Assembly: GCA_900315495.1 (NCBI GenBank)
Contig: OMZJ01000008.1
Location: 1-64,000, forward strand
From: an uncultured Lachnospiraceae bacterium
GTDB lineage: Bacteria > Bacillota > Clostridia > Lachnospirales > Lachnospiraceae
Length of the DNA: 64,000 nt
Reading direction: 5' to 3'
In this document: positions 36,884 to 53,412 of the stretch, in pieces
Layout of the letters: each line of letters begins with the position of its first letter
Numbering within the stretch: position 1 is the first letter of the stretch
Notes under the pieces: model-generated
The model's input: the letters and a program-made list of their open reading frames with translations, nothing else
Database searches by the model: none
Told to the model about the DNA's origin: nothing
Made by a program: the position numbers and the translations under genes

Positions 36884-37461
36884 TGAACCGGATTCAGATG
36901 CAGAAACTGCGGGAGGAGATTCCGGAGCGGGAGAAGAAGTCGGAGATGATCTTTCAGATCATCACGGAAAGTGCCCTGTACCGGAACGCGGAAACGGTCT
37001 TTCTCTATCTCTCCGTCGGCGCGGAGGTATCCACGGGGAAACTTCTGGAGGCCGTCCTGCGGGATGGGAAGCGGGCGGCGGCGCCGGTGCCCGGCCGCAG
37101 AGGGCAGATGACGTTCCGCCAGGTCCGAAATCCCGCGGAGGATCTCGTGACGGGAAAATTCGGCGGAATCCCGGAGCCGCGTCCGACCTGCCCGGAATGC
37201 ATTCCAGATCCGAATGACCTGATCCTGGTGCCGGGGCTCCTGTTTGACCGGCGGGGCTTCCGGATCGGGTACGGCGCCGGATACTACGACCGGTATCTGG
37301 CAAAGCTCTCGGACGGGTGCAAACCGGTCGGCATATGCTTTCAGGGCCAGCTGACGGAGCGCATCGACAATAAGCCATGGGACATTCCGGTCGCGCGGAT
37401 TGTGACGGAGACCGGCCTGCGGGACTGCGATGCGGAGGAAGCGCCGAAGACAGAATCCTGA
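36883..37461 (+). CDS. 5-formyltetrahydrofolate cyclo-ligase
   Basis: 192 residues, usual size. The N-terminal basic/Ser region, the VFLYLSVGAEVSTGKLL substrate segment and the C-terminal signature DLILVPGLLFDRRGFRIGYG followed by GYYDRYLAKL are all present. It converts 5-formyl-THF to 5,10-methenyl-THF with ATP, restoring an inhibitory folate to the one-carbon pool. The 175-bp gap after it shows no gene. Confidence 0.93.
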   Translation: MNRIQMQKLREEIPEREKKSEMIFQIITESALYRNAETVFLYLSVGAEVSTGKLLEAVLRDGKRAAAPVPGRRGQMTFRQVRNPAEDLVTGKFGGIPEPRPTCPECIPDPNDLILVPGLLFDRRGFRIGYGAGYYDRYLAKLSDGCKPVGICFQGQLTERIDNKPWDIPVARIVTETGLRDCDAEEAPKTES

Positions 37462-37636
37462 TGCGGCCGTGGACGCTTCGGGCTGCCTGCGGGAAGAAAT
37501 CCGGCGGCGACCGGAGGCCTGTTTGCGCGAAGCTGTGAACGCAGCGGCCGCCTTCGGGCAGGAACCGCGCAGTCATGGAAGGCGTTTTCTGACGAAATCG
37601 GAAGCACAACCGCAGATTCCTAAGAAGGATGGAAAG

Positions 37637-38116
37637 ATGAAGATAACACTGCTGACTGTCGGGAAAATCCGGGAGAGCTGGTGGACGGAAGCCATTGCGG
37701 AGTATGTCAAGCGCCTCGGCGCATATGCGAAAGTCAGTATCATCGAGGTGGAGGATGAGAAGACGCCGGAACATGCGCCGGCGGCGCTGGAGGAGCAGAT
37801 CAAGGACAAAGAGGGACAGAGGCTTCTGGCAAAGCTTCCCCCGGATGCCTATCTGATTGCGCTCACGATCCATGGAAAGGCTTTTTCCTCCCCGGAACTG
37901 GCCGCACATCTGCAGGAGCGGATGAACCGCGGAAATTCCCACATCGCCTTTGCCATCGGCGGGTCTCTGGGCCTTTCCTCCGGGGTGCTGGCGGCGGCGC
38001 GGGAGGAGATCAGCTTCTCCCGGCTGACCTTTCCGCATCAGATGATGCGGGTCATCCTGCTGGAACAGATTTACCGGTCCTTCCGGATCCTGAACCATGA
38101 ACCGTATCACAAGTGA
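37637..38116 (+). CDS. rlmH: 23S rRNA pseudouridine-1915 N3-methyltransferase RlmH
   Basis: 159 residues, exactly the family length. It starts MKITLLTVGKIRESW. The SPOUT knot region reads HIAFAIGGSLGLSSGV, and the C-terminus HQMMRVILLEQIYRSFRIL ends in NHEPYHK, the active-site tail of RlmH. It uses SAM to methylate pseudouridine 1915 in helix 69 of assembled 70S ribosomes. The ATG follows AAGAAGGATGGAAAG. Confidence 0.97.
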   Translation: MKITLLTVGKIRESWWTEAIAEYVKRLGAYAKVSIIEVEDEKTPEHAPAALEEQIKDKEGQRLLAKLPPDAYLIALTIHGKAFSSPELAAHLQERMNRGNSHIAFAIGGSLGLSSGVLAAAREEISFSRLTFPHQMMRVILLEQIYRSFRILNHEPYHK

Positions 38117-38140
38117 CCGGACCGGCCGAAAGGAGCATTT

Positions 38141-39292
38141 ATGATTTATGCAGATCATGCGGCGACTACCCGCATCTCGGAATCGGCGCTTCGCGTTTAC
38201 GACGATGTATGCCGCAGTGATTTCGGCAATCCTTCGTCGCTGTATGCGGACGGGAGAAAGGCCCGTGCGGTGCTGGAACAGGCCAGAAGGGAGGTGGCGG
38301 ACTGTCTGGGCGCAGATCCCGTGGGCGTCATTTTCACTTCCGGCGGGAGTGAGTCTGACAACTGCGCAATCCGTGCGGCGGCCGCCCTCGGGCGGGCGCA
38401 GGGGAAGTGTCATCTCATTTCCACACAGTTTGAGCATCACGCGGTGCTGCACACACTGCGGAAACTGGAGCGGGAGGGATATTCCGTGACGCTCCTCGCG
38501 CCGGACCGGGAGGGATTCATTCACCCGGAACAGGTGGAGGAAGCGATCACGCCGGATACTGCGCTGGTCAGCGTCATGACGGCAAACAATGAGATCGGGA
38601 CCATCCAGCCGGCCGCAGAGATCGGCGAAGTCTGCAGGCGGCACGGCGTCCTGTTTCACACCGATGCGGTACAGGCGGCGGGACACATTCCGGTACATTT
38701 CCGAGACATGCATGCGGATTTTCTCGCGCTGTCTGCCCACAAATTTGAGGGGCCGCGGGGAACCGGCGCCCTCCTGGTCCGGCCGGGGCTTGCCGTGGAA
38801 CCTCTGATCGAGGGCGGCGGCCAGGAGAGAGGCCGCCGCGCCGGTACGGAGAATACGGCGGGGATTGCCGCGATGGCCGCGGCGCTGCGGGAAAACTGTG
38901 CGCAGATGGCAGAGCGGTCGGCGCGCGTGGCGGACCTCCGGGACCGGCTGATTGACGCCGTGCTGCAGATTCCGGGCAGCCATCTGAACGGAAGCCGTAA
39001 GAAGAGGCTGCCGGGCAATGCCAGCTTTGTCTTTGAGGGGATTGAGAGCGAATCGCTGCTGCTCCTTCTGGACAGCGCGGGCATTGAGGCGTCCACGGGG
39101 TCCGCATGCAGTGCCGGTTCCGTCGAGCCCAGCCACGTGCTTCTGTCGATCGGCGTTCCGGAACAGCTTGCGCACGGTTCGCTTCGTCTGACGCTCGGCC
39201 CGGAAAACACAGAGCAGGAAATCGATGAGATTGCGGAAACACTCCGTTCGCTGGTGGAGGAACTGAGAGAGAATGCGGGAGAAAATCCATAA
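38141..39292 (+). CDS. Cysteine desulfurase (NifS/IscS-type)
   Basis: 383 residues, PLP-dependent class V aminotransferase fold. H100 and D175 (LFHTDAVQ) are cofactor contacts, K201 in LSAHKFEGPRGTG is the Schiff-base lysine, and C323 in TGSACSAGSVEPS is the catalytic cysteine on its loop. It starts with the classic IYADHAATTRIS. It moves sulfur from cysteine to a carrier for Fe-S or thio-tRNA synthesis. No iscU or thiI lies beside it; the next gene, overlapping by 20 bp, is a redox membrane protein. Confidence 0.93.
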   Translation: MIYADHAATTRISESALRVYDDVCRSDFGNPSSLYADGRKARAVLEQARREVADCLGADPVGVIFTSGGSESDNCAIRAAAALGRAQGKCHLISTQFEHHAVLHTLRKLEREGYSVTLLAPDREGFIHPEQVEEAITPDTALVSVMTANNEIGTIQPAAEIGEVCRRHGVLFHTDAVQAAGHIPVHFRDMHADFLALSAHKFEGPRGTGALLVRPGLAVEPLIEGGGQERGRRAGTENTAGIAAMAAALRENCAQMAERSARVADLRDRLIDAVLQIPGSHLNGSRKKRLPGNASFVFEGIESESLLLLLDSAGIEASTGSACSAGSVEPSHVLLSIGVPEQLAHGSLRLTLGPENTEQEIDEIAETLRSLVEELRENAGENP

Positions 39293-41072
39293 AAGGGGGA
39301 AAAGACCGGGGGCAGGAGCGACATGTCTGGCCGCCTGCCTCTTTTTGATTCTGTCCGGCGCCGGGGGGATCCGGGTGTCTGCGGCCGCGGTGCCGGAACA
39401 ATCGGCGGGGATAATCCAGGCCGCGGCAGCTGTGCGCGGGACATGGCCGGAGGAATGTGCATCGGCAGTCACTGGACAGGTGGAATGGTTGAAAGGAAAT
39501 GCGCCGGCTAGCGCTGCACGGACAGAATCTTCAGGAGATTCGGAAGAGCCGGTGCGGATGGATTACTATTATTTCAACACCTGCTCCGCCTGCACGCCGG
39601 AAGAGGAATTCTATGAGATTGTCCGGGAGGAGATCGGGGACCTGCGCGGGGAGTATCCCATAGTCATCCAGGAACACAATACGTTTCAGTCCGGCGCGCG
39701 GGCCGATTTCCAGAAGATGGAGGAAGCACTGGGGCTGACGGACCTTCCCTCGGAGAGCGAAGTCCTGGTGATCGGGGATCAGGCCCTCGTCGGGCGCGAC
39801 CAGATCTCCCGAAATCTGCGCGCCTTCTTTCTGGAACAGGTGGGAGTCGGTGCAGAAGTCCGGACAGAACCCGAAACCGGTTCGCCCCCTGCGGAATCCG
39901 CGAGTTCCCCGGAGACACAAACACCTTCCTCTGCGGGGTTTGAAGGGGGGTCTGATCTCTGGAACGACGAGATCTCGGACAGTGATTCGGTGCTCTGGCT
40001 GTTTACGACGCTCTCGTGCGCCGACTGCGGCCGGGTCTACCGCCTGCTCGATCAGATCGGGGATACGGTGACGCTTGCGGACGGCTCGGTCTCCCGGGTG
40101 GTCGTGAAAGAGACGAATATCACGGAGGAAAACAACGTTGCGGTTCTGTATGCGCTCTTTGACGCATACGGCGTGCCGGACAGCAGCCAGCAGGTTCCCG
40201 CACTGTTTTACCAGGACGGCTGGCTGACCGGTGCGGATGACATTGAACAGAATCTGGAAAAGGACCTGCGCGCGGGGCAGATGCAGCATCTGGATCCGGC
40301 GCGTTTCCGGGAAGCGGCCGCGCAGAGCACGGCGGCGGGCGAGAGCAGTGTACAGAATCCGCCGAATCCGCTGTCGCTGATTCTGACAGGGCTCGTCAAC
40401 GGGCTGAATCCGTGCGGCGCTTCGATGCTTCTGATGCTTCTGGCGGGGGTGATTGCCGTCGGCGGAAAAATTCTCATGACAGGGCTCTCCTATCTGACAG
40501 GAAAAATGGCGGCCTACTTTGCGATGGGATTCGGCCTGTACCGCCTGCTGCAGATGATTGACACGGCTTTCCTGTCCGGCCTGAGCCGCGTGCTCTCATG
40601 GATTTTTGCCGGCATTTTCCTGGTGCTGGCGGTGCTTTACGTGATTGATTTCGTTCACGTGCGGAGGGAAGAGTACGGAAAGGAGCGGATGCAGCTGCCG
40701 CAGGGGCTGCGCCGGTGGAACCGGAAGCTGATTCAGCGGGCGGCCTCCGCAAGGGCATCCCGCCTGGTTCCCGTGTGCTTTGCCCTCGGTGTGGTCGTTT
40801 CCGCGGGGGAATTCTTCTGCACCGGCCAGGTCTATCTGGCGGAGATTCTCTATCTGATGCGAAGCGGCACCGGGCACGCGCAGGCGGTGCTCTCCTTTAT
40901 CCTGTATGTCACAGCGATGTGCGTGCCCAGTCTCCTCTTAGTGCTTGTCGTGGCAAAAACCGGAAACACCGTACGGGCATCCAATACCTCCCTGCAGGCA
41001 CTCCCGGCAATCAAGCTTTTAACCGCCATTGTTTTCGCGGTTTTTGCGGTGCTGATGCTCTTCCTGCGGTGA
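39273..41072 (+). CDS. Membrane thiol-redox protein: two thioredoxin-like domains fused to a CcdA/DsbD-like domain
   Basis: 599 residues. A signal peptide or anchor lies at about 15-38. The first extracytoplasmic thioredoxin-like domain has CSAC (C104/C107) and the second CADC (C249/C252), joined by a Pro/Ser/Thr linker. From about residue 365 the protein is polytopic, with C381 in NGLNPCGAS and C516 in SAGEFFCTGQVY, the positions of the redox cysteines in CcdA/DsbD transmembrane domains. It should carry electrons from the cytosol to extracytoplasmic thiols. The start overlaps the cysteine desulfurase by 20 bp. The duplicated redox domains fused in front of the membrane part are unusual. Confidence 0.8.
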   Translation: MREKIHKRGKRPGAGATCLAACLFLILSGAGGIRVSAAAVPEQSAGIIQAAAAVRGTWPEECASAVTGQVEWLKGNAPASAARTESSGDSEEPVRMDYYYFNTCSACTPEEEFYEIVREEIGDLRGEYPIVIQEHNTFQSGARADFQKMEEALGLTDLPSESEVLVIGDQALVGRDQISRNLRAFFLEQVGVGAEVRTEPETGSPPAESASSPETQTPSSAGFEGGSDLWNDEISDSDSVLWLFTTLSCADCGRVYRLLDQIGDTVTLADGSVSRVVVKETNITEENNVAVLYALFDAYGVPDSSQQVPALFYQDGWLTGADDIEQNLEKDLRAGQMQHLDPARFREAAAQSTAAGESSVQNPPNPLSLILTGLVNGLNPCGASMLLMLLAGVIAVGGKILMTGLSYLTGKMAAYFAMGFGLYRLLQMIDTAFLSGLSRVLSWIFAGIFLVLAVLYVIDFVHVRREEYGKERMQLPQGLRRWNRKLIQRAASARASRLVPVCFALGVVVSAGEFFCTGQVYLAEILYLMRSGTGHAQAVLSFILYVTAMCVPSLLLVLVVAKTGNTVRASNTSLQALPAIKLLTAIVFAVFAVLMLFLR

Positions 41073-41225: not shown

Positions 41226-42842
41226 TCAGTCATCCGGGCAGAAGAGTGCGAAGCTCTGCGGCCCGAGCGTGACCCGGCCGTTGCTGTAGCTTCCGGTGCC
41301 GATGGTGTAAAGTGCCTTCATGTTTCTGCGGTAAACCGAAGGAAGCACCGTGCTGCGGGACGATCCGGAGGGATTGACCGCGGCGATCAGGTCGCCTCTG
41401 CGGTAGACGAACAGCGGGTTCTCATCCGATGCAAACACGGAGGAGAAATCGGCATCCGCCTGCAGGTCGCTGTGTGCGTGCCGCAGGGCAATCAGAGCCT
41501 TCACGGTGTTCAGAAGGGAATCCGGATCCTTTGCCTGATCCTCGACCGTCGGGGCATCCGCCGACGGATCCTGCGGCAGGTAGATGGCGGAAGAATCCGC
41601 ATCAGAGAATCCGTAATTGGCCCCGTGGTTCCACTGCATCGGCGTGCGGGAGCCGGTACGGAAATATCCGCCCTCTTTGGTCGGCAGGTTCAGATAGCGC
41701 ATGCCGATTTCATCGCCGTAGTACAGGAACGGTACGCCCGGCATGGTGAACAGGAACGCGTAGAAGAGCTTCAGCTCGTCATACGAGAGGCTGTATCTGA
41801 GGCGGACCGTGTCATGGTTGCCGGAGATCAGGCTGATATAGCCGTCCTTCTTCGTCCGCTGCAGCATGGGAGCATACTGCGCCGTGAACTTCGTAACGGT
41901 TCCGCCGGCATCCTTCTTGAAGTAGCTGTGATCCTCATATGCGGGCGAGGGCTTCCCATTTCCGATGAATCCGTTTCCGGACTGAACGATCCGGTCGGTA
42001 TGATTCTGATAATCCCGGACCAGCGTGCCGAAGGCCTGATCGGAATTGTTCAGAATGAAATCCATGTGGAAACCGGCCGGCAGTGCCTGCTCCGGGCAGC
42101 TCCACTCGGAGACAAAGGCGGCCTCCGGGTATTCTGCGTCGAGCATGGCGCGCACATTCCGCCAGACCGCGCTGGTTCCGCTCTTTTTCTCGTCATCCCC
42201 CTTGACCAGAGAGTCCGCCATGTCCACGCGGAAGCCGTCCAGCCCCAGATCCAGCCAGAAGCGGATGACATCCTTGAGTGCCTCGACGGTGGCAACGGCG
42301 TCAGGATCGTCCGTGGCGGTCTGCCAGGGCTCGGTCTTGTGGAGGAAGCCGTAGTTCAGTGCAGGCTGGCACTTGAAGAAATTGATCATGTACGTGGCAC
42401 TGCGCTCCGCCTCGCCTGCGATGATCCGGTATCCGTCCATGCCCTGGAAGCAGAAGTCTGACCAGATGTAACGGCCGGACAGGGGATTTTTCTCCGCTTT
42501 GGAGCTCTCCCGGAACCAGGCGTGCTCCTCCGAGGTGTGTCCTGCGACAAGGTCGAACAGGACGTGCATGCCGCGACGGTGCGCTTCTTCAAAAAGCCGC
42601 ACCGCATCCGCATTCGTGCCGTAGCGCGGCGCGATCTTTTTGTAGTCCCGGACGTCATAGCCCGCGTCCTTGAAGGGAGAGTCAAAACAAGGATTCAGCC
42701 AGAGGGCGTTGAACCCGAGATCATGGATATAATCCAGCTTTTCAATGATTCCCTGCAGATCACCGATGCCGTCGCTGTTCGTATCACAGTACGACTGCGG
42801 ATAAATCTCATAGAAGACCGCGTCTTTCAGCCATGCTGGCAT
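41226..42842 (-). CDS. GH13 alpha-glucosidase family protein
   Basis: 538 residues without a signal peptide, so intracellular. It begins LKDAVFYEIYPQSYCDTNSDGIG, typical of the oligo-1,6-glucosidase/trehalose-processing GH13 group. The nucleophile is D207 in GFRVDMADSL, the acid/base E246 in FVSEWSCPEQ and the third carboxylate D344 in SGNHDTVR. Region I reads FDLVAGHTSEEH, with Gly where DxVxNH usually has Asn. A C-terminal beta domain ends the protein. It probably hydrolyses imported malto- or isomalto-oligosaccharides or a related disaccharide. The ATG has GGAGGT 6 nt upstream. The 170-bp gap upstream holds nothing obvious. Confidence 0.88.
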   Translation of the reverse strand: MPAWLKDAVFYEIYPQSYCDTNSDGIGDLQGIIEKLDYIHDLGFNALWLNPCFDSPFKDAGYDVRDYKKIAPRYGTNADAVRLFEEAHRRGMHVLFDLVAGHTSEEHAWFRESSKAEKNPLSGRYIWSDFCFQGMDGYRIIAGEAERSATYMINFFKCQPALNYGFLHKTEPWQTATDDPDAVATVEALKDVIRFWLDLGLDGFRVDMADSLVKGDDEKKSGTSAVWRNVRAMLDAEYPEAAFVSEWSCPEQALPAGFHMDFILNNSDQAFGTLVRDYQNHTDRIVQSGNGFIGNGKPSPAYEDHSYFKKDAGGTVTKFTAQYAPMLQRTKKDGYISLISGNHDTVRLRYSLSYDELKLFYAFLFTMPGVPFLYYGDEIGMRYLNLPTKEGGYFRTGSRTPMQWNHGANYGFSDADSSAIYLPQDPSADAPTVEDQAKDPDSLLNTVKALIALRHAHSDLQADADFSSVFASDENPLFVYRRGDLIAAVNPSGSSRSTVLPSVYRRNMKALYTIGTGSYSNGRVTLGPQSFALFCPDD

Positions 42843-43013: not shown

Positions 43014-43313
43014 TCAGGCTGTTTTGGTCCAAACGGCGTCCGTCAGTTCCGAAAGCCCCGTCAAGGCGCGGATCTGCGCCAGATCCTTCTCTCCCTGCAG
43101 GAGGCTTGCGGTGAGATCCGCCGCGATGCGGAGCCTGGCCGCGCTCCGGTGAATTTCACAGGGCTCCGGGTCATTGAAATAACGGATGCTCGCAGAGAGA
43201 ATCGCCTCCTCTGTGAGCGGAATCTCGGAGACCGGCCCCTCATACAGCACCTGATCCGCGGATTTCAATGTGATCCTGTGCGTAATTCGTGATTTTTTCC
43301 GGAATATTTCCAT
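43014..43313 (-). CDS. Hypothetical protein, 99 residues
   Basis: A small soluble protein starting MEIFRKKSRITHRITLKSAD, with a central beta-like part (LYEGPVSEIPLTEEAILSAS) and a helical C-terminal half (LRIAADLTASLLQGEKDLAQ). It has one cysteine and no membrane segment. AAGGGGG lies 8 nt upstream of the ATG, which favours a real gene. It lies upstream of GH13 on the same strand but 170 bp away, so an operon is uncertain. I do not recognise the family. Confidence 0.5.
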   Translation of the reverse strand: MEIFRKKSRITHRITLKSADQVLYEGPVSEIPLTEEAILSASIRYFNDPEPCEIHRSAARLRIAADLTASLLQGEKDLAQIRALTGLSELTDAVWTKTA

Positions 43314-43930
43314 GAAATTTTCCCCCTTTTGCCAGTTTCGTTTCCCGCAGATGCTGATCCGGCTTGCGGTACTCTGGCAGCTGCCGGACAGATTCTTCTG
43401 CTTTCCTGGTTTCCGGCATGCGCCGTACAGCGGTGCGGCCGCTTTGCCGCTGCAGATCCTGCCGTCTGCCGCTGCGTTTTCCCCATCATAGCACAGGAGG
43501 GGGAGATTGCCCAGTGCCGCCTCCGCCTACGGCCGGGATTTCCTGACAGGGCGGCCTGTTGAATGCAGATTCGAGATTCCCTCTGATCCGCCTGCAGTCA
43601 CGATTTCCGGCCGTCGTGCTCCCCGGCTGCCGTTTTCCGGAAAAGCGGAGCAGAACGTCTGACACGTTTATCTATTTAAACCAAAACTGTCAGGATTTTG
43701 TACAATGTACGCTGACAGGGCAGGACGCGCGGGCTCACGGCATCCGCGCCGTTATGTGGAGCGGAGAAATGACACAAATCAGGTAAAATGCGGAGAGAAA
43801 CCGATCAAAATGTGGTACAAATCAGAAATAAAACCGGAGAAATCAACGCAGAAATGAGGTGGAAATACCATAATAGACAGAATAAATAATATTTGGACAG
43901 CCTTTTTGATCAAGATTGATTCATTTTATC
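43314..43930. other. Long upstream region of the ABC transporter operon
   Basis: No supportable gene in about 620 bp. The second half becomes AT-rich. Notable elements are CTGTCA (43687-43692) facing TGACAG about 20 bp later, TACAAT close to 43700, and a repeated ACAAATCAG separated by about 60 bp (near 43774 and 43817). These could be regulator sites for the solute-binding protein gene; no regulator gene is adjacent. Confidence 0.35.
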
Positions 43931-43959
43931 TTGCATTCACCGGACAGCCGTGCTATGAT
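43931..43959 (+). promoter_or_regulatory. Promoter for the solute-binding protein gene
   Basis: TTGCAT (4/6), an exact 17-bp spacer and TATGAT (5/6) lie 39 bp before the start codon, with AAAGGAGG between. Confidence 0.6.
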
Positions 43960-43998
43960 TTTGACATCACCGATGTCTTCTTCGGAAAAGGAGGAAAA

Positions 43999-45705
43999 AT
44001 GAGAAAATTGAAAACCGCATTGGCAGTTCTCAGTGCTGTCGCTATGGTCATTCCGTCCGGTACCGCATTTGCCGCTTCGGATGACGGCGGAGCAGGGGAA
44101 CTCACGGAAGTCGGAACCTACCCGATTTACGATGGTGATGAACCGCTTTCCTTCACCATGTTCCGTCTTTCGATGCCGAACGTCGAGGATTTCGCGACCA
44201 ATGACTTCACCAAGTACATGGAAGATCTCACGAACATCCATTTCGACTTCGAGACCGGAACCCGTGACGACCGCTATGACAAGATCAACATGGAGTTCAA
44301 CACCGGAACGTATCCGGACTGCATCATGTATGTCTCGGTCGACCAGGCGAAATGGGGCATGGATGAGGGTATCCTGATTCCGCTGGATGATCTGATCTAT
44401 GAGAACATGCCGAACTACGTGGAGAAGATGGGCGATTACATCGATTCCACCAGAGCGGCGGACGGCCATATCTATGCGATCGCCGGATTCAACGACTGCT
44501 ATCACTGCTCGTTCGGCCGCAAGATGTGGGTCAATACCGAATATCTGGATGAGATGGGCGTTGAGGTTCCGACCACGACGGATGAGTTCTACGACGTCTG
44601 CAAGAAGTTTGTCGAGACTTATCCGGACAAGATCGCAATCGGCGGCGCAAACTCCGGCTGGTATGTCGACTTTGTCGCATGGATCATGAACGCATTCCAG
44701 TTCGATCCGGGCAAGAGCCAGGACTATAATGTCAAGGTTGCGGTGGATCCGGACGGCAATGTGGTCGAGACAGCCAATACCGATGCCTACCGCGAAGGCC
44801 TGAAGTATCTGAGATCCCTGTATGATCTCGGCGCGATCTATGACGGCGACTTCACGCAGGATGCAGAGACACTCCGCAACATCATGAACCAGGAAGACGA
44901 GCCGGTGCTGTTTGTTCCGTTCGGCACAATCTCCGACGGCGTTGACGCTGATTCCAACAACGAGCTGTACCGCAAGTATCAGTGCATCGCTCCGCTGAAG
45001 GGACCGGACGGCGCCCAGTACACCACATGGTTCAAGTATGACGCCGTGGAAGAGGGCAGCTTCTCCATCACCGACAAGTGCACGAATCCGGCAGCTCTGC
45101 TTCGCTGGGTGGATTACTTCTTCTCCGAGAAAGGTGACATCTCTTCTCAGTACGGCGCAGATGAGGGCACCGACTGGGTGTGGGAGCCGAACGACGGCTC
45201 CGTCGGCCTGAACGGCAAGCCTGCCATGTATGAGATTTCCGATTCTGCCCAGTATTCCTCCGAGGCACAGAACCACGACTGGCAGGATGTTGTCATCCGC
45301 TATGCACCGGCTGATTATCGTCTCGGCCAGGCAACGGATCCGGATATCGATACCGGAACCTCCGCAGGACTGGAAAAGCTTCTGTACGATGCTTCTGTCA
45401 TGATGGAGCCGTACAAGCAGGATCCGGCAAAGGGCGACCTCGATATCCTTCCGACGCTGAAGCTTACGGCAGACGAGGCGAGCAGCATCTCCACGATCGG
45501 TGTCGAGGTGGAGAACTACATCGCTTCCAGCAAGGTCAGCTTCATCAACGGCGAGTGGGACATCAACGATGATGCACAGTGGGATTCTTACCTGAAGGGA
45601 CTGGATGATTCCGGTCTGCAGACTCTGCTGGAGGTCTATCAGACCGCATATGACCGGTCTAAGGAAGCTTCCGCCGAGAGTGAGACGGAGACTGCAGCAG
45701 AATAA
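43999..45705 (+). CDS. Extracellular sugar-binding protein of a CUT1-type ABC transporter
   Basis: 568 residues, the large LplA/YtcQ type of solute-binding protein that partners LplB and YtcP permeases. The signal peptide is RKLKTALAVLSAVAMVIPSG ending TAFA, with signal peptidase I cleavage before ASDDGG. There is no lipobox cysteine, which is unusual for a Gram-positive binding protein. The mature protein is acidic and Tyr/Trp-rich, and ends in a Ser/Glu/Thr tail. AAAGGAGG precedes the ATG. A terminator separates it from the permeases, consistent with more binding protein than permease. The substrate is probably an oligosaccharide. Confidence 0.9.
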   Translation: MRKLKTALAVLSAVAMVIPSGTAFAASDDGGAGELTEVGTYPIYDGDEPLSFTMFRLSMPNVEDFATNDFTKYMEDLTNIHFDFETGTRDDRYDKINMEFNTGTYPDCIMYVSVDQAKWGMDEGILIPLDDLIYENMPNYVEKMGDYIDSTRAADGHIYAIAGFNDCYHCSFGRKMWVNTEYLDEMGVEVPTTTDEFYDVCKKFVETYPDKIAIGGANSGWYVDFVAWIMNAFQFDPGKSQDYNVKVAVDPDGNVVETANTDAYREGLKYLRSLYDLGAIYDGDFTQDAETLRNIMNQEDEPVLFVPFGTISDGVDADSNNELYRKYQCIAPLKGPDGAQYTTWFKYDAVEEGSFSITDKCTNPAALLRWVDYFFSEKGDISSQYGADEGTDWVWEPNDGSVGLNGKPAMYEISDSAQYSSEAQNHDWQDVVIRYAPADYRLGQATDPDIDTGTSAGLEKLLYDASVMMEPYKQDPAKGDLDILPTLKLTADEASSISTIGVEVENYIASSKVSFINGEWDINDDAQWDSYLKGLDDSGLQTLLEVYQTAYDRSKEASAESETETAAE

Positions 45706-45744
45706 TCCATCGGTCAGGACACGAAGAATCTGACAGGACGTTGC

Positions 45745-45780
45745 AAGGGCCTGCCTGTTTCCAGCAGGCAGGCCCTTTTT
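45745..45780 (+). terminator. Intra-operon terminator between binding protein and permease genes
   Basis: A 13-bp perfect stem (AAGGGCCTGCCTG / CAGGCAGGCCCTT), 7-nt loop and T tract follow the binding protein gene by 40 bp. Partial readthrough would set binding protein to permease stoichiometry. Confidence 0.88.
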
Positions 45781-45897
45781 CTGAGGATCGTCCGGCAGCG
45801 AGCCGTATGCAGAGAGACAAAACCAGGAAAAGGGAAGAGATCCCGACACCTCGCACAGGGCCCGATGCCGGCCGGCAGACGGGAAAGGAGAGAAAGA

Positions 45898-46860
45898 ATG
45901 AGTAAACAAAGCCAGACGGCGGTTCCGGCTCCCGCCGGAGACAGCGGAAAGAAAAGAAAGAAGAAAAAGCTGGGCACCAGCTACAACTGGCAGTTCTGGG
46001 CGATCATTGCCCTTCCGATGATCTATGCCTTTATTTTTGCCTATGTTCCGATGGGCGGAATCATTATGGCGTTCGAGAACTATTCCCCGCGGAAGGGAAT
46101 TTTCCACAGCCAGTGGGTCGGGCTGAGGTATTTCCGCCAGTTCTTCACGACGCCGTCCAGCTCCCGGATCATTATCAACACGCTGCGGCTCGGCATTTAC
46201 AGCCTTCTGGTCAATTTTCCGCTGCCGATCATCCTGGCCATCTGCCTGAATGAGATGCGCAGCCAGAAATACAAGAAATTCATCCAGATGGTCACCTATG
46301 CGCCGTACTTCATCTCCACCGTCGTTCTGGTCGGTATGATGATGAAGAGCATGGATCTGCGGACTGGTATCTTCAATACCGTGCTCAAGGCGCTGGGATT
46401 CCAGCCAGTCAACTTCTTCGGGGATGCCAGTCTGTTTCCGTCCCTCTATGTGTGGAGCACGCTCTGGCAGACCGCCGGCTATTCCTCGATCATTTACATC
46501 GCCGCGCTGGCCGGGGTGAATCCGGAACTGCAGGAGGCAGCCATCGTGGACGGCGCTTCCCGCATCCAGAGAATCCTCCATGTGGATCTCCCCTCGATCG
46601 CGCCGACGATCATCACGATGCTGATTTTCAATTCTGCCAGTGTCATCAACATCGGTTTTGACAAAGTTTATCTGATGCAGAATGACATCAACCGCAGTAC
46701 CTCGGAAGTGATTTCAACCTTCGTGTACAAGGTCGGTCTGACGCAGGGCGACTTCGGCTTCTCCACCGCCGCAGGCCTGTTCCAGTCTGCCATCAGCTTC
46801 GGACTGCTTGTGCTGGTGAACTTTATCTGCAAGCGCCTGACAGACACGAGCCTCTGGTAA
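45898..46860 (+). CDS. ABC transporter permease, LplB family
   Basis: 320 residues with six predicted membrane helices after a basic cytosolic N-terminus (GKKRKKKKLGTSYN). The binding-protein-dependent permease EAA loop appears as ELQEAAIVDGASRIQRILHV, the contact for the ATPase. LplB-type permeases form a heterodimer with YtcP-type partners, encoded next. No ATPase gene is present; such transporters usually share a MsmK-like ATPase encoded elsewhere. The ATG follows GGAAAGGAGAGAAAG. Confidence 0.93.
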   Translation: MSKQSQTAVPAPAGDSGKKRKKKKLGTSYNWQFWAIIALPMIYAFIFAYVPMGGIIMAFENYSPRKGIFHSQWVGLRYFRQFFTTPSSSRIIINTLRLGIYSLLVNFPLPIILAICLNEMRSQKYKKFIQMVTYAPYFISTVVLVGMMMKSMDLRTGIFNTVLKALGFQPVNFFGDASLFPSLYVWSTLWQTAGYSSIIYIAALAGVNPELQEAAIVDGASRIQRILHVDLPSIAPTIITMLIFNSASVINIGFDKVYLMQNDINRSTSEVISTFVYKVGLTQGDFGFSTAAGLFQSAISFGLLVLVNFICKRLTDTSLW

Positions 46861-46875
46861 AGAAGGGAGAAACCA

Positions 46876-47829
46876 ATGAACAGTCAAGAAAAAGCAATCG
46901 ACAGAGCCGCGAAGCGCGCGGGAAAGGGCGATCCGCTGCACGCGTTCAAGAGCGAGAGCACCGGCGAGAAGATCGGCACCATCGTACTGTACCTTGTCAT
47001 GACGATGCTGGTCCTTCTGGTCCTCCTCCCGGTTCTCAACATCATTGCCTGCTCCTTCTCCGAGCCGCAGGCCGTGATTTCGGGAAAGGTCGGGCTGTGG
47101 CCGGTCAATCCGACCCTTCGCGGGTACGACGCCGTCTTCAAGTACAAAAAGTTCTGGATCGGCCTGCGCAATTCCATCTTTTATACCGTGTTCGGCACGT
47201 TCGTCAACATCGTCATGACGGTGCTGTGTGCCTATCCGCTGTCCCGGAAGGAATTCACAGCCAGAAACAAGATCTCCATGTACTTCGTCTTCACGATGTA
47301 TTTCTCCGGCGGCCTGGTTCCGACCTTCCTGGTCATCACGAAGCTGCAGCTGGTCGATACCATCTGGGCGATGATCATCCCGGTGGCCATGTCCTCCTAC
47401 AACATGATCATCTGCCGCACCTACATGGTCAACTCGATTCCGGACGAATTGTATGAGGCCGGAGAGCTGGACGGCTGCACGCCGTTCCAGTATCTGATCC
47501 GCGTGGTGGTGCCGCTGTGCAAGCCGATCCTGGCAGTCCTGGTGCTGTATTACGCGGTCGGCCACTGGAATTCCTACCAGGATGCCATGTTCTATTTGAA
47601 GAGCGAGAACCTGATGCCGCTGCAGATTGTTCTGCGCGAAATCCTGATCCTCAGCGACGTGGATGTCACGATGATGGGAAGTGCCGACGCACTGGCGCGG
47701 CAGAGAGGCCTGAAGGATCTTCTTCAGTACAGCCTGATTGTGGTCTCTTCCCTGCCCGTCATGATCATCTATCCGTTCGTGCAGAAGTATTTTGTCAAGG
47801 GCGTGATGATCGGCGCCGTCAAAGGTTAA
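46876..47829 (+). CDS. Carbohydrate ABC transporter permease, YtcP/MalG-like
   Basis: 317 residues, six membrane helices. The EAA loop reads ELYEAGELDGCTPFQYLIRV. The C-terminus PFVQKYFVKGVMIGAVKG is typical of CUT1 MalG-type permeases. It is the second half of the transporter pair and follows LplB by 15 bp with AAGAAGGGAG upstream. A palindromic hairpin follows the stop. Confidence 0.93.
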   Translation: MNSQEKAIDRAAKRAGKGDPLHAFKSESTGEKIGTIVLYLVMTMLVLLVLLPVLNIIACSFSEPQAVISGKVGLWPVNPTLRGYDAVFKYKKFWIGLRNSIFYTVFGTFVNIVMTVLCAYPLSRKEFTARNKISMYFVFTMYFSGGLVPTFLVITKLQLVDTIWAMIIPVAMSSYNMIICRTYMVNSIPDELYEAGELDGCTPFQYLIRVVVPLCKPILAVLVLYYAVGHWNSYQDAMFYLKSENLMPLQIVLREILILSDVDVTMMGSADALARQRGLKDLLQYSLIVVSSLPVMIIYPFVQKYFVKGVMIGAVKG

Positions 47830-47954: not shown

Positions 47955-48734
47955 ATGATGAACAGACTTCAGCTGGAAGTATGTGTCGACAGCATCGGGT
48001 CGGCCGTCTCCGCCGAGCGCGGCGGAGCCGACCGGCTCGAACTGTGTTCGGACCTGATTGTGGGCGGTACGACGCCCTGCGCGGTGCTGTACCGGGAAAT
48101 TAGGCGCCGCGTCGCGATTCCGATCCGCGTGCTGATCCGCCCGCGGTTCGGGGATTTCTGCTATAGCGAAGAAGAGTTCGGCCTGATCCTGGGAGAGATC
48201 CGCCTGTTCCGGGATCTGGGCGCGGATGCCGTTGTGATCGGGTGCCTCCGCCCGGACGGAACCTTCGACCGGGAACAGATGAAACAGGCGGTGGACGCGG
48301 CAGGCCCGATGGAAATCACCTGCCACAGAGCCTTTGACGTGTGCCGGGATCCCTTCGAGGCGCTGGACCTTCTGACAGATCTTGGCATCGGCACCGTGCT
48401 GACCTCCGGGCAGAAGAGAAGCGTTTCGGAGGGAGCGGACCTCCTGGCAGAGCTGGTCCGCCGCTCTGCGGGAAAAATCTCCGTCATGCCCGGCGGAGGC
48501 GTCAATGCGAAGGTGCTCCGGAAGCTGGTGCCGGAAGTCGGCGCCGGCGTCTACCACATGTCGGGGAAAAAGATTGTGGAAAGCCGCATGCAGTACCGGA
48601 GTCAGGAGGTTTCCATGGGCCTGCCCTCCCTCTCGGAATATGAGATCTGGGAGACAGATGAAAACGCGGTGCGGGCGGCCAGGACCGTCCTGGACGAATT
48701 TACGGAGGCCGGAACCAGTCCGGAGAAGAGATGA
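47955..48734 (+). CDS. cutC: CutC-family protein
   Basis: 259 residues with a TIM-barrel. Typical CutC motifs are LEVCVDSIGSAVSAERGGAD, RLELCSDLIVGGTTPC, IRVLIRPRFGDFCYSEEE and ITCHRAFDVCRDP. Originally tied to copper homeostasis, its biochemical role is unsettled, and in Firmicutes it often sits in sugar gene clusters, as here. The ATG pair at 47955/47958 matches the family N-terminus. An in-frame ATG at 47931 lies 3 nt from GGAGG, too close. ATGA overlap with the next gene. Confidence 0.9.
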   Translation: MMNRLQLEVCVDSIGSAVSAERGGADRLELCSDLIVGGTTPCAVLYREIRRRVAIPIRVLIRPRFGDFCYSEEEFGLILGEIRLFRDLGADAVVIGCLRPDGTFDREQMKQAVDAAGPMEITCHRAFDVCRDPFEALDLLTDLGIGTVLTSGQKRSVSEGADLLAELVRRSAGKISVMPGGGVNAKVLRKLVPEVGAGVYHMSGKKIVESRMQYRSQEVSMGLPSLSEYEIWETDENAVRAARTVLDEFTEAGTSPEKR

Positions 48735-51295
48735 AAGAATTTCTGAAGAATCATGAAGCGCAGATCCGCGCAGAATTTGACCGGCTCACAGCCCGTTTCC
48801 CGGCGCTGACGGAAGAGGTGCGAAAGGACCTTTTCGGGATGGACCGCGCCCACGGGCTGGCGCTGCAGTACCTGTATGACACGATGCCCCTTTCGGACCT
48901 GGCCGCGTACCCCGTGTCCGTCCTCCGAAGCTTTTCGGATCCGGCGGTGGATCTGTGGATGCAGTCCGGGCAGGTGCAGGAGATCCCGGAGGAGATCTGG
49001 CTCCCCTATGTCCTGTTCCACCGGGTCAACGAGGAGGAAATCCGCCCGTGCCGGGCATGCTTTGCGGAACAGCTTCTGCCGCGCATCGCCGGGAAGACGC
49101 CGTACGATGCCATTGTGGAAGCCAATTACTGGTGTGCCGAGCAGGGCACCTATCACGGAACCGACCGCCGCACCATCTCCCCGATGGCTTTCTACACCTG
49201 TGGAAGCGGGCGCTGCGGCGAGGAATCGGCTTTCTGCGTCAGCGCCCTCCGCGCTGCCGGCATTCCGGCCAGGCAGGTCTATGTGCCGCGCTGGGCACAC
49301 TGCGATGACAACCATGCCTGGGTCGAGGCGTGGTGCGACGGGCAGTGGTTTTTCCTGGGTGCCTGCGAGCCGCTTCTGACGCTCAACCGCGGGTGGTTCC
49401 CGCCGGCGGCGTCCCGCGTGATGATCGTTCATTCGCGCTTCTTCTGCCCGGAGGGCTGCAGCCTGATCCCGGAGGAGAAGGATGCGGATGTCATCGGGCG
49501 CGAGGGCGGTGTCCTGGTCCTGAATCAGACCGCCCGCTATGCGGACACGGTGCGCTTTCACATCCATGCGGAGGATGACGAGGGAAATCCCGCGGCCGGC
49601 GCGCGGATCCGCCTGCAGATTCTGAATGCGGCGGAGATCGCCGATCTGGCGCAGCTTTCGGCGGACGATGCGGGCGATGCGTCGGTCACGCTGGGAAAGG
49701 GGTCGGTCCGGGTCCTTGTATCCGACGGTGCGCGGGAGAGCACCGTCCTGGCGGATTCCGGCAGGGACGGGAGAATCTGCGTGCAGCTTCCGTCGTCCGG
49801 CACCTGCGGGGAGGCGGACACCACGGGAGAGACAGATGCCCGCTGGACGTCCATGATCTTCCGGGCGCCGGAGGAGACGCCGAAGTGGCCCCAGGGGGTT
49901 CCGGATGAAACCCGCCGGCAGGAGAAGGAAAAGCTGGAGCAGGCGTCGGCCGTCCGGCGGGCGCGCACCGGCCATTACGAGAACCCGGAGCGCGCCCGGT
50001 TCCTGGAGGAGGAGGTCTGCACCGCGGGGGATTCCTGGAAGGTGGAGGAGACCGCCTGGAAGGAGCGGCTTCTCGCCCATCTCTCCGACAAGGATCAGAA
50101 GGATTTCCGGGCGGATGTCCTGGCGTCCCATCTGCGTGCGGCCATGGCGGTCCGGGATCTGTCTCTGGATGAGGAGACCTTTGCCGCGTATGTGCTGAAT
50201 CCGCGGATTTCTTCGGAAGTATTGACGCCATGGCGGGAGGCCTGCGCCGGCGTGTTCGGCGGGGATTCGGCGTACCGCAGAAGTCCCGCGGAAATCTGGC
50301 AGTGGATCGGCGCACACATCCGGGATCTCCCCGGGCGGGAGCGCGCGTCGGTGATCACGCCCCCGGACGCGGTCCTGCGGTCCGGCTTCGGCAGTGCTCT
50401 GTCCCGGAAGGTTCTGTTTGCGGCGGCCTGCCGTTCCATCGGGATCCCTGCCAGACTCTCCCCTCTGGACGAGGCACCGGAATACCTGGTCGGAGGAGTC
50501 TGGAAGACGGCGGATCCGGCCGATGAGCGCGATGCTATGCTGAGGATCGATGCCGGCACGGAAGGACGGAAAGGGTATTACGTTTCCTGGACCGCGGCCC
50601 GGGCCGAGCGCGGCGAGGAGCACACGCTGGATCTTCCGGCGGCGGAGGTTTCGGAAACCGGGGACGGGATCCTTACTGTTCCGGTTCCGCACGGCGTCTA
50701 CCGGCTGTATACGACACTGCGCCTTCCGAACGGCACCCAGAAAGCAGAGATGGCGGAGATTGCCGTAAAGCCGCAGGCGCGCCGTCTGTGCCGGCTTCGC
50801 TTTGCCGAGGCGGAGCTGTCAGAGATGACGGTGGACTGCATGCTGCCGGATTTCCCGCTGCAGCGGACGGATCCTGCGGATTCTGAAATCCGTCTGTCGG
50901 AGGTGACCCGTGACGGCACGAAGATCCTCTTCTGGCTGGACGCGGCGAAGGAGCCGACCGAGCATATCTTCAATGAACTCCACGAATCCCGCGCATCGTT
51001 TGCCGCCGTGCAGAAATCGCTGGTCTTTATCCTGAAGTCGGAGGACGACCGGAAGGATCCACTGGTTGCCCGCGCACTGGCGGAATTCCCGGATGCGGTG
51101 ACCGTCACGGACGAGGGGGCATCGGGCGCGGAACCCTGCGCCCGGGCGGTCTATGTCAACCCCGAGGCGCTTCCGCTGATCATCCTGACGGACGGCGCCT
51201 GCCATGCGGTTTTTGCGCGGGCTGGCTACAGCGTCGGCACGGCAGCCCTGCTTCTCCGCGTTCTGGCCATGCTCCGGACACCGAAACAGAAATAA
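48731..51295 (+). CDS. Large transglutaminase-like domain protein
   Basis: 854 residues, no signal peptide. A transglutaminase/protease-like domain at about 115-225 has the triad C162 (SGRCGEES), H195 (DDNHAWVEAW) and an acidic residue E213 (GACEPL). A beta-sandwich follows (VRFHIHAEDDEG), then a charged helical region. A second, degenerate transglutaminase-like region near 530-600 (IPARLSPLDEAPEY) lacks the Cys-His pattern, and more beta-sandwich ends the protein. Cytosolic proteins of this build are seen beside sugar genes in Clostridia, but their substrate is unknown. The ATG overlaps the cutC stop. Confidence 0.78.
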   Translation: MKEFLKNHEAQIRAEFDRLTARFPALTEEVRKDLFGMDRAHGLALQYLYDTMPLSDLAAYPVSVLRSFSDPAVDLWMQSGQVQEIPEEIWLPYVLFHRVNEEEIRPCRACFAEQLLPRIAGKTPYDAIVEANYWCAEQGTYHGTDRRTISPMAFYTCGSGRCGEESAFCVSALRAAGIPARQVYVPRWAHCDDNHAWVEAWCDGQWFFLGACEPLLTLNRGWFPPAASRVMIVHSRFFCPEGCSLIPEEKDADVIGREGGVLVLNQTARYADTVRFHIHAEDDEGNPAAGARIRLQILNAAEIADLAQLSADDAGDASVTLGKGSVRVLVSDGARESTVLADSGRDGRICVQLPSSGTCGEADTTGETDARWTSMIFRAPEETPKWPQGVPDETRRQEKEKLEQASAVRRARTGHYENPERARFLEEEVCTAGDSWKVEETAWKERLLAHLSDKDQKDFRADVLASHLRAAMAVRDLSLDEETFAAYVLNPRISSEVLTPWREACAGVFGGDSAYRRSPAEIWQWIGAHIRDLPGRERASVITPPDAVLRSGFGSALSRKVLFAAACRSIGIPARLSPLDEAPEYLVGGVWKTADPADERDAMLRIDAGTEGRKGYYVSWTAARAERGEEHTLDLPAAEVSETGDGILTVPVPHGVYRLYTTLRLPNGTQKAEMAEIAVKPQARRLCRLRFAEAELSEMTVDCMLPDFPLQRTDPADSEIRLSEVTRDGTKILFWLDAAKEPTEHIFNELHESRASFAAVQKSLVFILKSEDDRKDPLVARALAEFPDAVTVTDEGASGAEPCARAVYVNPEALPLIILTDGACHAVFARAGYSVGTAALLLRVLAMLRTPKQK

Positions 51296-51473
51296 AATTT
51301 CCTGCTGTACTTCTGCCCGCGGGCCGGGGAAGGTGCATGAACGGTGACTGACGCCGACGATGGATCAAGGTTCTGCCGAAAGGTCAGGGCAGATTTTCAA
51401 GAACCGGGAGCCTCGGGCGGCCGGCAGGGTCAGAGCGGGAAACTTATGGGGTGCATTGCAGGGCGTTCTGTGG

Positions 51474-51479
51474 TACAAT
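51474..51479 (+). promoter_or_regulatory. Possible -10 element upstream of fucI
   Basis: TACAAT (5/6) lies 122 bp before the fucI start; no clear -35 is seen at the right distance. The rest of the 305-bp gap (51296-51600) holds no supportable gene. An in-frame ATG at 51513 would add 29 residues to FucI but lacks the strong ribosome-binding site of the downstream start. Confidence 0.35.
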
Positions 51480-51600
51480 GCAGTCAGTGTTAAATTTTCG
51501 AAAGAGGAAATCAATGGGATATTATCGGTCAGACGTCCGGCGGGGAGATGCCTCGTCCGATGGCGTACAGACCGAAATCATAAAGGAGGATACCACCAAT

Positions 51601-53412
51601 ATGGCTCAGAGCAGACTGATCGGATCCTATCCGGTCATTGGAATCCGTCCCACCATCGATGGGCGGCGCGGCTACCTGAAGGTCAGGGAATCGCTGGAGG
51701 AGCAGACCATGAACATGGCCCGGTCCGCCAAAAAATTGTTTGAGGACAATCTCCGTTATTCTGACGGAGAGCCGGTGAAGGTCGTCATTTCTCCGACGAC
51801 CATCGGCCGCGTGGCCGAGGCAGCCGTCTGTGAGGACTACTTCCGCAAGGAGGGAGTGGCCATCACTCTGACGGTCACCCCGTGCTGGTGCTACGGCGCC
51901 GAGACAATGGACATGGATCCGCAGACCATCAAGGCCGTCTGGGGATTCAACGGGACAGAGCGCCCGGGTGCAGTCTACCTGGCATCGGTGCTTGCAACCC
52001 ACGCCCAGAAGGGGCTTCCGGCATTCGGCATCTACGGACATGAGGTCCAGGAAGCGGATGACACGGAAATTCCGGAGGATGTCCGGGAGAAGCTTCTCCG
52101 GTTCGGCCGGGCAGCCGTTGCCGCCGCGACCATGCGCGGAAAGAGTTATCTGCAGATCGGATCCGTCACGATGGGCATCGGCGGCGCGATCATGAACCCG
52201 GATTTCCTGGAGGAATATCTGGGCATGCGCGTGGAATCCGTCGATGAGGTCGAGATCATCCGCCGGATGGAGCAGGGCATCTACGATCAGAAAGAGTATG
52301 AGAAGGCCCTCGCCTGGACGAAGGCGCACTGCCCGGAGGGATTCGACAAGAACCCGAAGGAGATTCAGCGCACGCCGGCCCAGAAGGAGAAAGAGTGGGA
52401 GTTCACGGTCAAGATGATGTGCATCATCAAGGACCTGATGAACGGAAACAAGAATCTTCCCGCAGGCTGCGAGGAGGAGATGGTCGGACACAATGCCATC
52501 GCCGCCGGCTTCCAGGGGCAGAGACAGTGGACCGATTTCTATCCCAATGGCGACTTCTCGGAGGCCATGCTCAATACCACCTTCGACTGGAACGGAGCGC
52601 GGGAGCCGTACATTCTGGCGACCGAGAACGACATTCTGAACGGCCTTTCCATGCTGTTCATGAAGCTTCTCACCAACCGCGCCCAGATGTTCTCCGACGT
52701 GAGAACGTTCTGGAGCCCGTCCTCTGTCAAGCGCTGCACCGGCTATGATCTGGAGGGAAAGGCCGCACAGAACGGCGGCTTCCTGCACCTGATCAATTCC
52801 GGCGCGACCTGCCTGGATGCCTCCGGCAGGTCGCTGGACGAAAACGGCAACCCGGTCATGAAGCCGTGGTACGATGTCACGGAAAAGGACATGGACGCCA
52901 TGCTGAAGGCGACCACCTGGAATGCGGCGGATCTCGGGTATTTCCGCGGCGGCGGATTCTCCTCCCGCTTTGTGACAGAGGCAGAGATGCCGATGACCAT
53001 GATGCGTCTGAACCTGGTCAAGGGCCTCGGCCCGGTGGTCCAGATTGCCGAGGGATGGACCGTCAACCTGCCCAAGGATGTGACGGAAAAGCTCTGGAAG
53101 AGAACCGACTACACCTGGCCGTGCACCTGGTTCACACCGCGCTGCGACGGCAAAGAGGGTCCGTTCAAGAGCGCCTATGATGTGATGAATCACTGGGGCG
53201 CCAATCACGGGGCGACCAGCTACGGCCACATCGGCGCGGATATCATCACGCTCTGCTCGATCCTTCGGATTCCGGTCTGCATGCACAATGTGCCGGAAGA
53301 CCGGATCTTCCGCCCGGCGGCATGGAATGCGTTCGGCATGAATCCGGAGGGTGCGGACTACCGTGCCTGCGCGAATTTCGGACCCAGATATCTGAACCTG
53401 AAGAAGAAATAA
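51601..53412 (+). CDS. fucI: L-fucose isomerase
   Basis: 603 residues, the length of hexameric Mn-dependent L-fucose isomerase. The N-terminus [19 protein letters not shown] is diagnostic. Central motifs include [14 protein letters not shown] and [20 protein letters not shown]; the metal-site region contains [20 protein letters not shown] and the C-terminal half carries [16 protein letters not shown]. It interconverts L-fucose and L-fuculose (and D-arabinose/D-ribulose). The ATG at 51601 has AAAGGAGGATACC upstream. No fuculokinase or aldolase gene is near, so the rest of the pathway must be elsewhere. Confidence 0.95.

Follow-up and report, generated by a model that had tools for sequence, protein, structure and literature searches.

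Proteins of the DsbD and CcdA type are built around a membrane domain with two conserved cysteines, which is complemented by an outer relay of thioredoxin fold; in DsbD, an outer domain comes first along the chain, followed by the membrane part and then by a thioredoxin domain. A Gram-positive version is known from Streptococcus pneumoniae, where a surface electron path leads from the cytoplasm via CcdA and outer thioredoxins to a methionine sulfoxide reductase (CcdA-Etrx-MsrAB2; PMC3914529). Here we describe a relative of these systems in a stretch of 64,000 nucleotides, hereafter the window, from an uncultured Lachnospiraceae bacterium (assembly GCA_900315495.1, contig OMZJ01000008.1, positions 1 to 64,000 of the forward strand). 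A gene on its plus strand (39273–41072) encodes a putative membrane dithiol reductase of 599 residues with two thioredoxin-fold domains and a CcdA/DsbD-like membrane domain (Trx-Trx-CcdA), as judged from the open reading frame, cysteine conservation, Pfam, and a structure model. The protein shares the membrane cysteine pair and the outer thioredoxin-fold relay with DsbD and CcdA, but differs from DsbD in its order (Trx-Trx-membrane), its motifs (NPC, GEFFCTGQ), a constant partner protein (F1), and its likely clients, the solute-binding proteins (SBPs) of sugar importers. With the pneumococcal system it has in common a Gram-positive surface path via CcdA and outer thioredoxins to a client; the parts that are separate proteins in the pneumococcus (PMC3914529) are, however, fused into one chain here, joined by F1 and, by association, by SBP clients. 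The reductase combines known parts in a new arrangement, and its genomic link with F1 and with SBPs that carry a C-x-H-C motif is well supported. In the portions of the open-licence literature consulted there is no account of a fused Trx-Trx-CcdA reductase, of an F1 partner or of SBP clients, nor of redox-controlled cysteine pairs in the sugar-binding proteins of ATP-binding cassette (ABC) importers.

The reading frame of the reductase is open throughout, and its six cysteines stand exactly where a preliminary description of the window, made from the letters alone, had placed them: C104 and C107 in a CSAC motif (codons 39582–39584 and 39591–39593), C249 and C252 in CADC (40017–40019 and 40026–40028), C381 in NPC (40413–40415), and C516 in FFCTG (40818–40820). 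The structure model (mean predicted local distance difference test score, pLDDT, 77; predicted template modelling score, pTM, 0.57) consists of an N-terminal helix, two α/β domains at residues ∼94–189 and ∼239–333, and a bundle of long helices at residues 366–598. Domain 1 (39552–39839, plus strand) resembles the thioredoxin-fold domain of SasA (1t4y; VIA-align: Z 10.0, 98 aligned residues, 3.9 Å) and domain 2 (39987–40271, plus strand) resembles thioredoxins (6zmu_D; Z 9.8, 93 aligned, 2.2 Å); thioredoxin domains occupy nearly the entire match list of the fold search. In the membrane domain (40368–41066, plus strand; Pfam and model), C381 and C516 fall in membrane helices 1 and 4, as read off the helix list of the model (380–396 and 495–531). 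The sole fold match of this part, 9a52_A (Z 9.5, 5.3 Å), is an integrative model and was left uninterpreted; no CcdA structure is among the fold-search matches listed, which is no evidence against a CcdA fold. The Pfam family DsbD_2 scored 24.8 bits against the window protein at a cut-off of 24.9, and 27.1 bits against the relative at locus L014; among 30 family members, DsbD_2 was matched at E ≤ 0.1 by 20 and Glutaredoxin by 21. Searched alone against PDB sequences, the window protein gave no useful match, and the profile of the family gave weak glutaredoxin and thioredoxin matches. The two CxxC thioredoxin-like domains and the CcdA/DsbD-like membrane domain named in the preliminary description are confirmed by the model, the fold matches, and the conserved architecture. 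Its remark that the domain order departs from that of usual DsbD proteins also holds, both thioredoxin domains preceding the membrane part in the model.

Homologous loci were taken from a scan of genome contigs, which gave 34 relatives (mostly Lachnospiraceae, plus Treponema and one spirochaete fragment), and from 200 genomes of the window's bacterial family, which added three, two of them in genomes already among the 34. The resulting alignment has 36 of 38 rows, the fragments L033 and L037 being omitted; L002 and L007 belong to one genome, as do L003 and L013. At an identity of ∼30%, C249, C252, C381, and C516 are cysteine in 36/36 rows, so that the two membrane cysteines singled out earlier are indeed conserved, and C104 and C107 are cysteine in 33/36, the three exceptions being Treponema proteins that lack domain 1. 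Judged from the aligned sequences, this conservation exceeds chance. In Treponema, a separate gene for 267 residues (258 in L035) with three CxxC motifs lies directly upstream of the reductase gene, and the arrangement there can thus be read as a split version of the window reductase. F1, the three-CxxC protein, and the single-thioredoxin CcdA protein stand in a row in these loci (L032:4807–7035, L034:4688–6916, L035:5589–7790). The reductase gene is accessory, since both other examined genomes of the window's genus lack it. It is present in 9 of 397 genomes of the bacterial family, in each of which the best candidates were scored, at most three for the reductase and the SBP and at most 12 for F1. 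Seven of these nine carriers are assemblies that also supplied loci to the contig scan, and the two surveys thus overlap instead of being independent; carriers overall number 36.

The most constant companion of the reductase is F1, an unannotated protein of 99 residues in the window (43014–43313, minus strand), recognized by its recurrence beside the reductase. Clustering of neighbours placed it in 27 loci and a more sensitive search in 35 of 37; it is missing at L025, where the contig ends 172 bases past the reductase gene, and at L037, a fragment of 169 residues. The two genes are 2.3 kb apart in L029, 2.6 kb in L038, and ∼0.8 kb in Treponema, and in the window they are separated by a gene of the GH13 α-amylase family (41226–42842, minus strand; Pfam) that we regard as context only. 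Among the 397 family genomes, those with F1 are exactly the nine with the reductase. The proteins are ∼100 residues long and have a single cysteine (codon 43158–43160 in the window), which is invariant in 28/28 rows. Searches of Pfam, NCBIfam, and PDB sequences gave no credible match. F1 is probably cytosolic, because 26/28 rows have no 19-residue stretch with a hydropathy above 1.6.

The second partner is the SBP, which in the window has 569 residues (43996–45705, plus strand; Pfam SBP_bac_1) and carries the motif C168-Y-H-C171 (44497–44508, plus strand). Across the SBPs at reductase loci (family F3), C-[YF]-H-C is found in 22/22 rows, with His170 as invariant as the two cysteines. The window genome contains 15 further places that match the SBP, and the 12 comparable genes among them all lack a CxxC (14 rows stand for these 12 genes, two being read twice; L054, a fragment of 78 residues, was dropped). 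A close SBP (>500 bits) occurs in ten of the 397 family genomes and has the motif in all ten, namely the nine reductase genomes and genome G272. The C-x-H-C SBP is hence present in 9/9 genomes with the reductase versus 1/388 without it (Fisher p 1.6e-17, uncorrected for relatedness). Three weaker SBPs (∼235 bits), one of them in the carrier G252, are without the motif. At the DNA level, the pattern DG-x-[IV]-Y-x7-C-[YF]-H-C matched 9/397 genomes, that is eight carriers and G272, and its reversed control none; the ninth carrier, G365, was missed because of a threonine, and its SBP still reads CYHC.

This association is beyond mere linkage, because SBPs with the motif lie far from the reductase in the genome of L009 and because the motif occurs in distant SBPs. 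In the complete genome of L009, the reductase lies at ∼0.49 Mb, and C-x-H-C SBPs are encoded at five places (1.05, 2.49, 5.01, 5.49, and 6.27 Mb). In 12 of 14 loci checked by BLAST, no SBP was detected beside the reductase, a test that remote SBPs such as that of L031 escape. Among 15 genomes searched for the SBP genes nearest to that of the window (E ≤ 1e-40), seven carrier genomes gave new loci with 20 genes; 16 of these genes encode C-x-H-C, 11 of these being 26–29% identical to the window SBP. Of the remaining genomes, G093 had one more SBP with the motif and seven gave none. A looser pattern matched 28/33 carrier genomes, in 27 cases within SBP-sized open frames of 416–649 residues; the match in G411 lies outside any open frame of at least 40 residues. 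On 155 family genomes it matched three carriers and three others, against 2/155 for the reversed control, and the three non-carrier matches were rejected as chance sites outside SBP-like frames. Distant SBPs of Anaerocolumna (25–26% identity to the window SBP) have CFHC. The Treponema SBP L149, one of the 27 cases just mentioned, has CLHC; it had no Pfam match at E ≤ 0.01, but its alignment to the profile of the SBPs spans 532 columns (hhalign, 100%). A tree of 68 SBP rows (47 with and 21 without the motif) yielded five motif changes, and four to five in bootstraps, of which supported branches force only two; two genes are doubled in it, any C-x-H-C in frame counts for the label, the motif columns were kept, and long branches make the deep joins unsure. 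One SBP frame of the carrier G398 (L101) combines CVHC with two further CxxC motifs.

The model of the window SBP (mean pLDDT 81.5) shares its overall fold with FusA, AlgQ, and Blon_2347 proteins, FusA being nearest (Z 30.8, 457 aligned, 3.2 Å), followed by Blon_2347 (Z 28.5) and AlgQ2 (Z 27.2). It differs from FusA in the C-x-H-C loop: In the profile alignment, CYHC stands opposite S-I-H-S in FusA (within E-S-I-H-S) and opposite Y-F-N-I in Smon0123. The report on Smon0123, a relative of solved structure, describes a contact of Tyr146 with the bound sugar (PMC5717064). This tyrosine aligns two positions before C168 (numbering counted in the printed alignment and checked at Trp284 and Ser287), which by alignment would place C-x-H-C at the rim of the ligand cleft. 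Smon0123 has a calcium loop, D-P-N-G-N-G (residues 189–198), that by sequence is deleted in the window SBP and present as DPNGNG in L015. Because this EF-hand-like loop is deleted, the window SBP, which resembles class G oligosaccharide SBPs (FusA, AlgQ), is not assigned to that class. In the lipobox column, the window SBP has threonine (43996–44075), compared with a probable lipobox cysteine in 18/22 linked SBPs; it may be released instead of lipid-anchored.

On balance, we favor, with some reserve, a reading in which the Trx-Trx-CcdA dithiol reductase and F1 jointly maintain the C-x-H-C of sugar-importing SBPs in the reduced state. The reductase would belong to the CcdA/DsbD type, as a dithiol-reducing machine that acts outside the cytoplasm and has two built-in outer thioredoxin domains: Electrons from the cytoplasm would reach the membrane pair C381/C516, proceed to C249/C252 of domain 2 and from there to C104/C107 of domain 1, which would finally reduce the C-x-H-C dithiol of oligosaccharide SBPs, here C168/C171. 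Held reduced beside the ligand cleft, this pair would leave the SBP able to bind or release its glycan. F1 as the constant partner could perhaps act as electron donor, assembly or control factor. We infer which way and in what order the electrons flow, that the SBP is a direct client, how binding is affected, and what F1 does; the path is drawn by likeness to DsbD and CcdA-Etrx, and its order follows the order of the domains along the chain. A more far-reaching version, in which reduced C-x-H-C forms a redox gate that switches glycan capture on and is set by Trx-Trx-CcdA and F1 from the electron supply of the cell, in Lachnospiraceae and at least one Treponema, is conceivable but doubtful. If the link is true, keeping a nutrient receptor functional costs gut anaerobes electrons outside the membrane. 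Glycan uptake would then be tied to the redox state, the unannotated F1 family would gain a role, and CcdA-type reductases would gain a new kind of client.

Several observations weigh against this reading. The genome G272 (one contig) has a CYHC SBP and lacks F1, and a search for the reductase (E ≤ 1) found no full match; elsewhere, this genome encodes a different DsbD_2 protein with a fused heavy-metal domain, which may or may not replace the reductase. Conversely, no credible C-x-H-C SBP was found in 6/33 carriers (G402, G404, G406, G407, G410, and G411), whose genomes are not known to be complete, and the gene adjoining the reductase at L031, SBP-like at 98% and with no Pfam match, is without the motif. 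In the window protein itself, domain 1 has Glu163 (39759–39761) at the usual place of the cis-proline, which is kept in 32/32 other domain-1 rows and, in domain 2, in 36/36 rows. The domain may therefore be altered or decaying; a proline a few residues before Glu163 makes an alignment shift possible there. Moreover, reductase, F1, and SBP do not form one operon in the window, and most loci are one glycan locus, the genes of which could be inherited together. As a natural test case, G272 (L076, L152) retains the CYHC SBP along with permeases, a regulator, and a fucosidase in the absence of reductase and F1.

Joint inheritance is the core of the strongest competing explanation, a general thiol reductase of the outer surface, comparable to CcdA-Etrx with its methionine sulfoxide reductase in the pneumococcus, that travels with the SBP only through a shared, exchangeable glycan-use locus. 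In many loci, the genes for reductase, regulator, SBP, and permeases lie side by side, so linkage alone would yield their co-occurrence, and the two reductase-free genomes of the window's genus are what an accessory island would leave. We nevertheless consider this explanation unlikely in view of genomes in which the reductase is unlinked and several SBPs carry C-x-H-C, and of the CFHC and CLHC SBPs of Anaerocolumna and Treponema, which have the motif in common but not the locus. The motif could also be a metal site of the SBP, for instance for zinc or copper, with the reductase freeing the thiols for loading and the ligand bound via or near the metal. Such a site would suit a histidine that is invariant with the two cysteines and is retained where FusA has E-S-I-H-S, as well as the CutC-family gene, named for copper, in the window and seven other loci; yet a redox pair would equally show C-x-H-C spacing next to a helix, and most loci are without CutC, which makes the metal site an improbable choice. 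Reduction of disulfides in host glycoproteins or mucins for glycan harvest, with the SBP motif serving another role, is more improbable still: The common neighbours include genes for fucosidase, fucose isomerase, aminopeptidase, and transglutaminase-like proteins, which speaks for such a harvest, but the motif in distant, unlinked SBPs would be left unexplained, and the thioredoxin domains are tied to the membrane.

Least credible of all is the proposal of the preliminary description that thiol export is coupled to the mobilization of cysteine sulfur by the neighbouring cysteine desulfurase (NifS/IscS type; 38141–39292, plus strand). The gene overlap that prompted it is real and amounts to 20 bp with the reductase gene in the window genome. 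However, a tblastn search (E ≤ 1e-8), which a very distant type would escape, detected a relative of this desulfurase in 0/37 homologous loci, 28 of which include 4.8 kb or more of upstream sequence, and the coupling was rejected on this ground; a lack of co-occurrence in other genomes is what the preliminary description itself had named as a refutation. As far as seen in these sequences, the overlap is private to the window genome; the position of the desulfurase, which we place outside the system, seems to be an accident of gene order. Upstream of it lie genes for RlmH and 5-formyltetrahydrofolate cyclo-ligase, which are general housekeeping. Since it is F1 and C-x-H-C SBPs that are conserved as partners, a link with sugar uptake is supported and one with cysteine sulfur is not.

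Downstream of the SBP gene, the window encodes two ABC permeases (Pfam BPD_transp_1) on the plus strand, the first presumably LplB-like (45865–46860; recurring as F4) and the second presumably YtcP-like (46876–47829; F5). By clustering, a regulator of the AraC type that includes a sensor part (F2) recurs in 23 loci, the SBP in 21, and the permeases F4 and F5 in 19 and 17, respectively; no F2 regulator was seen in the window. Further glycan-locus neighbours on the plus strand (47976–53412; Pfam), context rather than core, are a CutC-family gene (47976–48734; F7), a transglutaminase-like gene (48731–51295; F6), and an L-fucose isomerase gene (51598–53412). Genes of the CutC family, transglutaminase-like genes (∼850 residues), and genes for M17 aminopeptidases and DeoR-type proteins appear in changing subsets beside the glycan locus (window 47976–51295; L011, L014, L023, L024, L025). 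The transglutaminase-like core presumably resembles peptide:N-glycanase, and a glycopeptide substrate is thus possible. Genes resembling α-L-fucosidase were noted by eye in five examined loci (two of them also scanned, one of the five in G272); together with the L-fucose isomerase of the window they prompt the weak guess that the substrates are fucose-bearing oligosaccharides. Two very long antisense reading frames of 836 and 886 residues (36962–39472 and 43921–46581, both minus strand) overlie real genes and look like by-products of base composition rather than genes.

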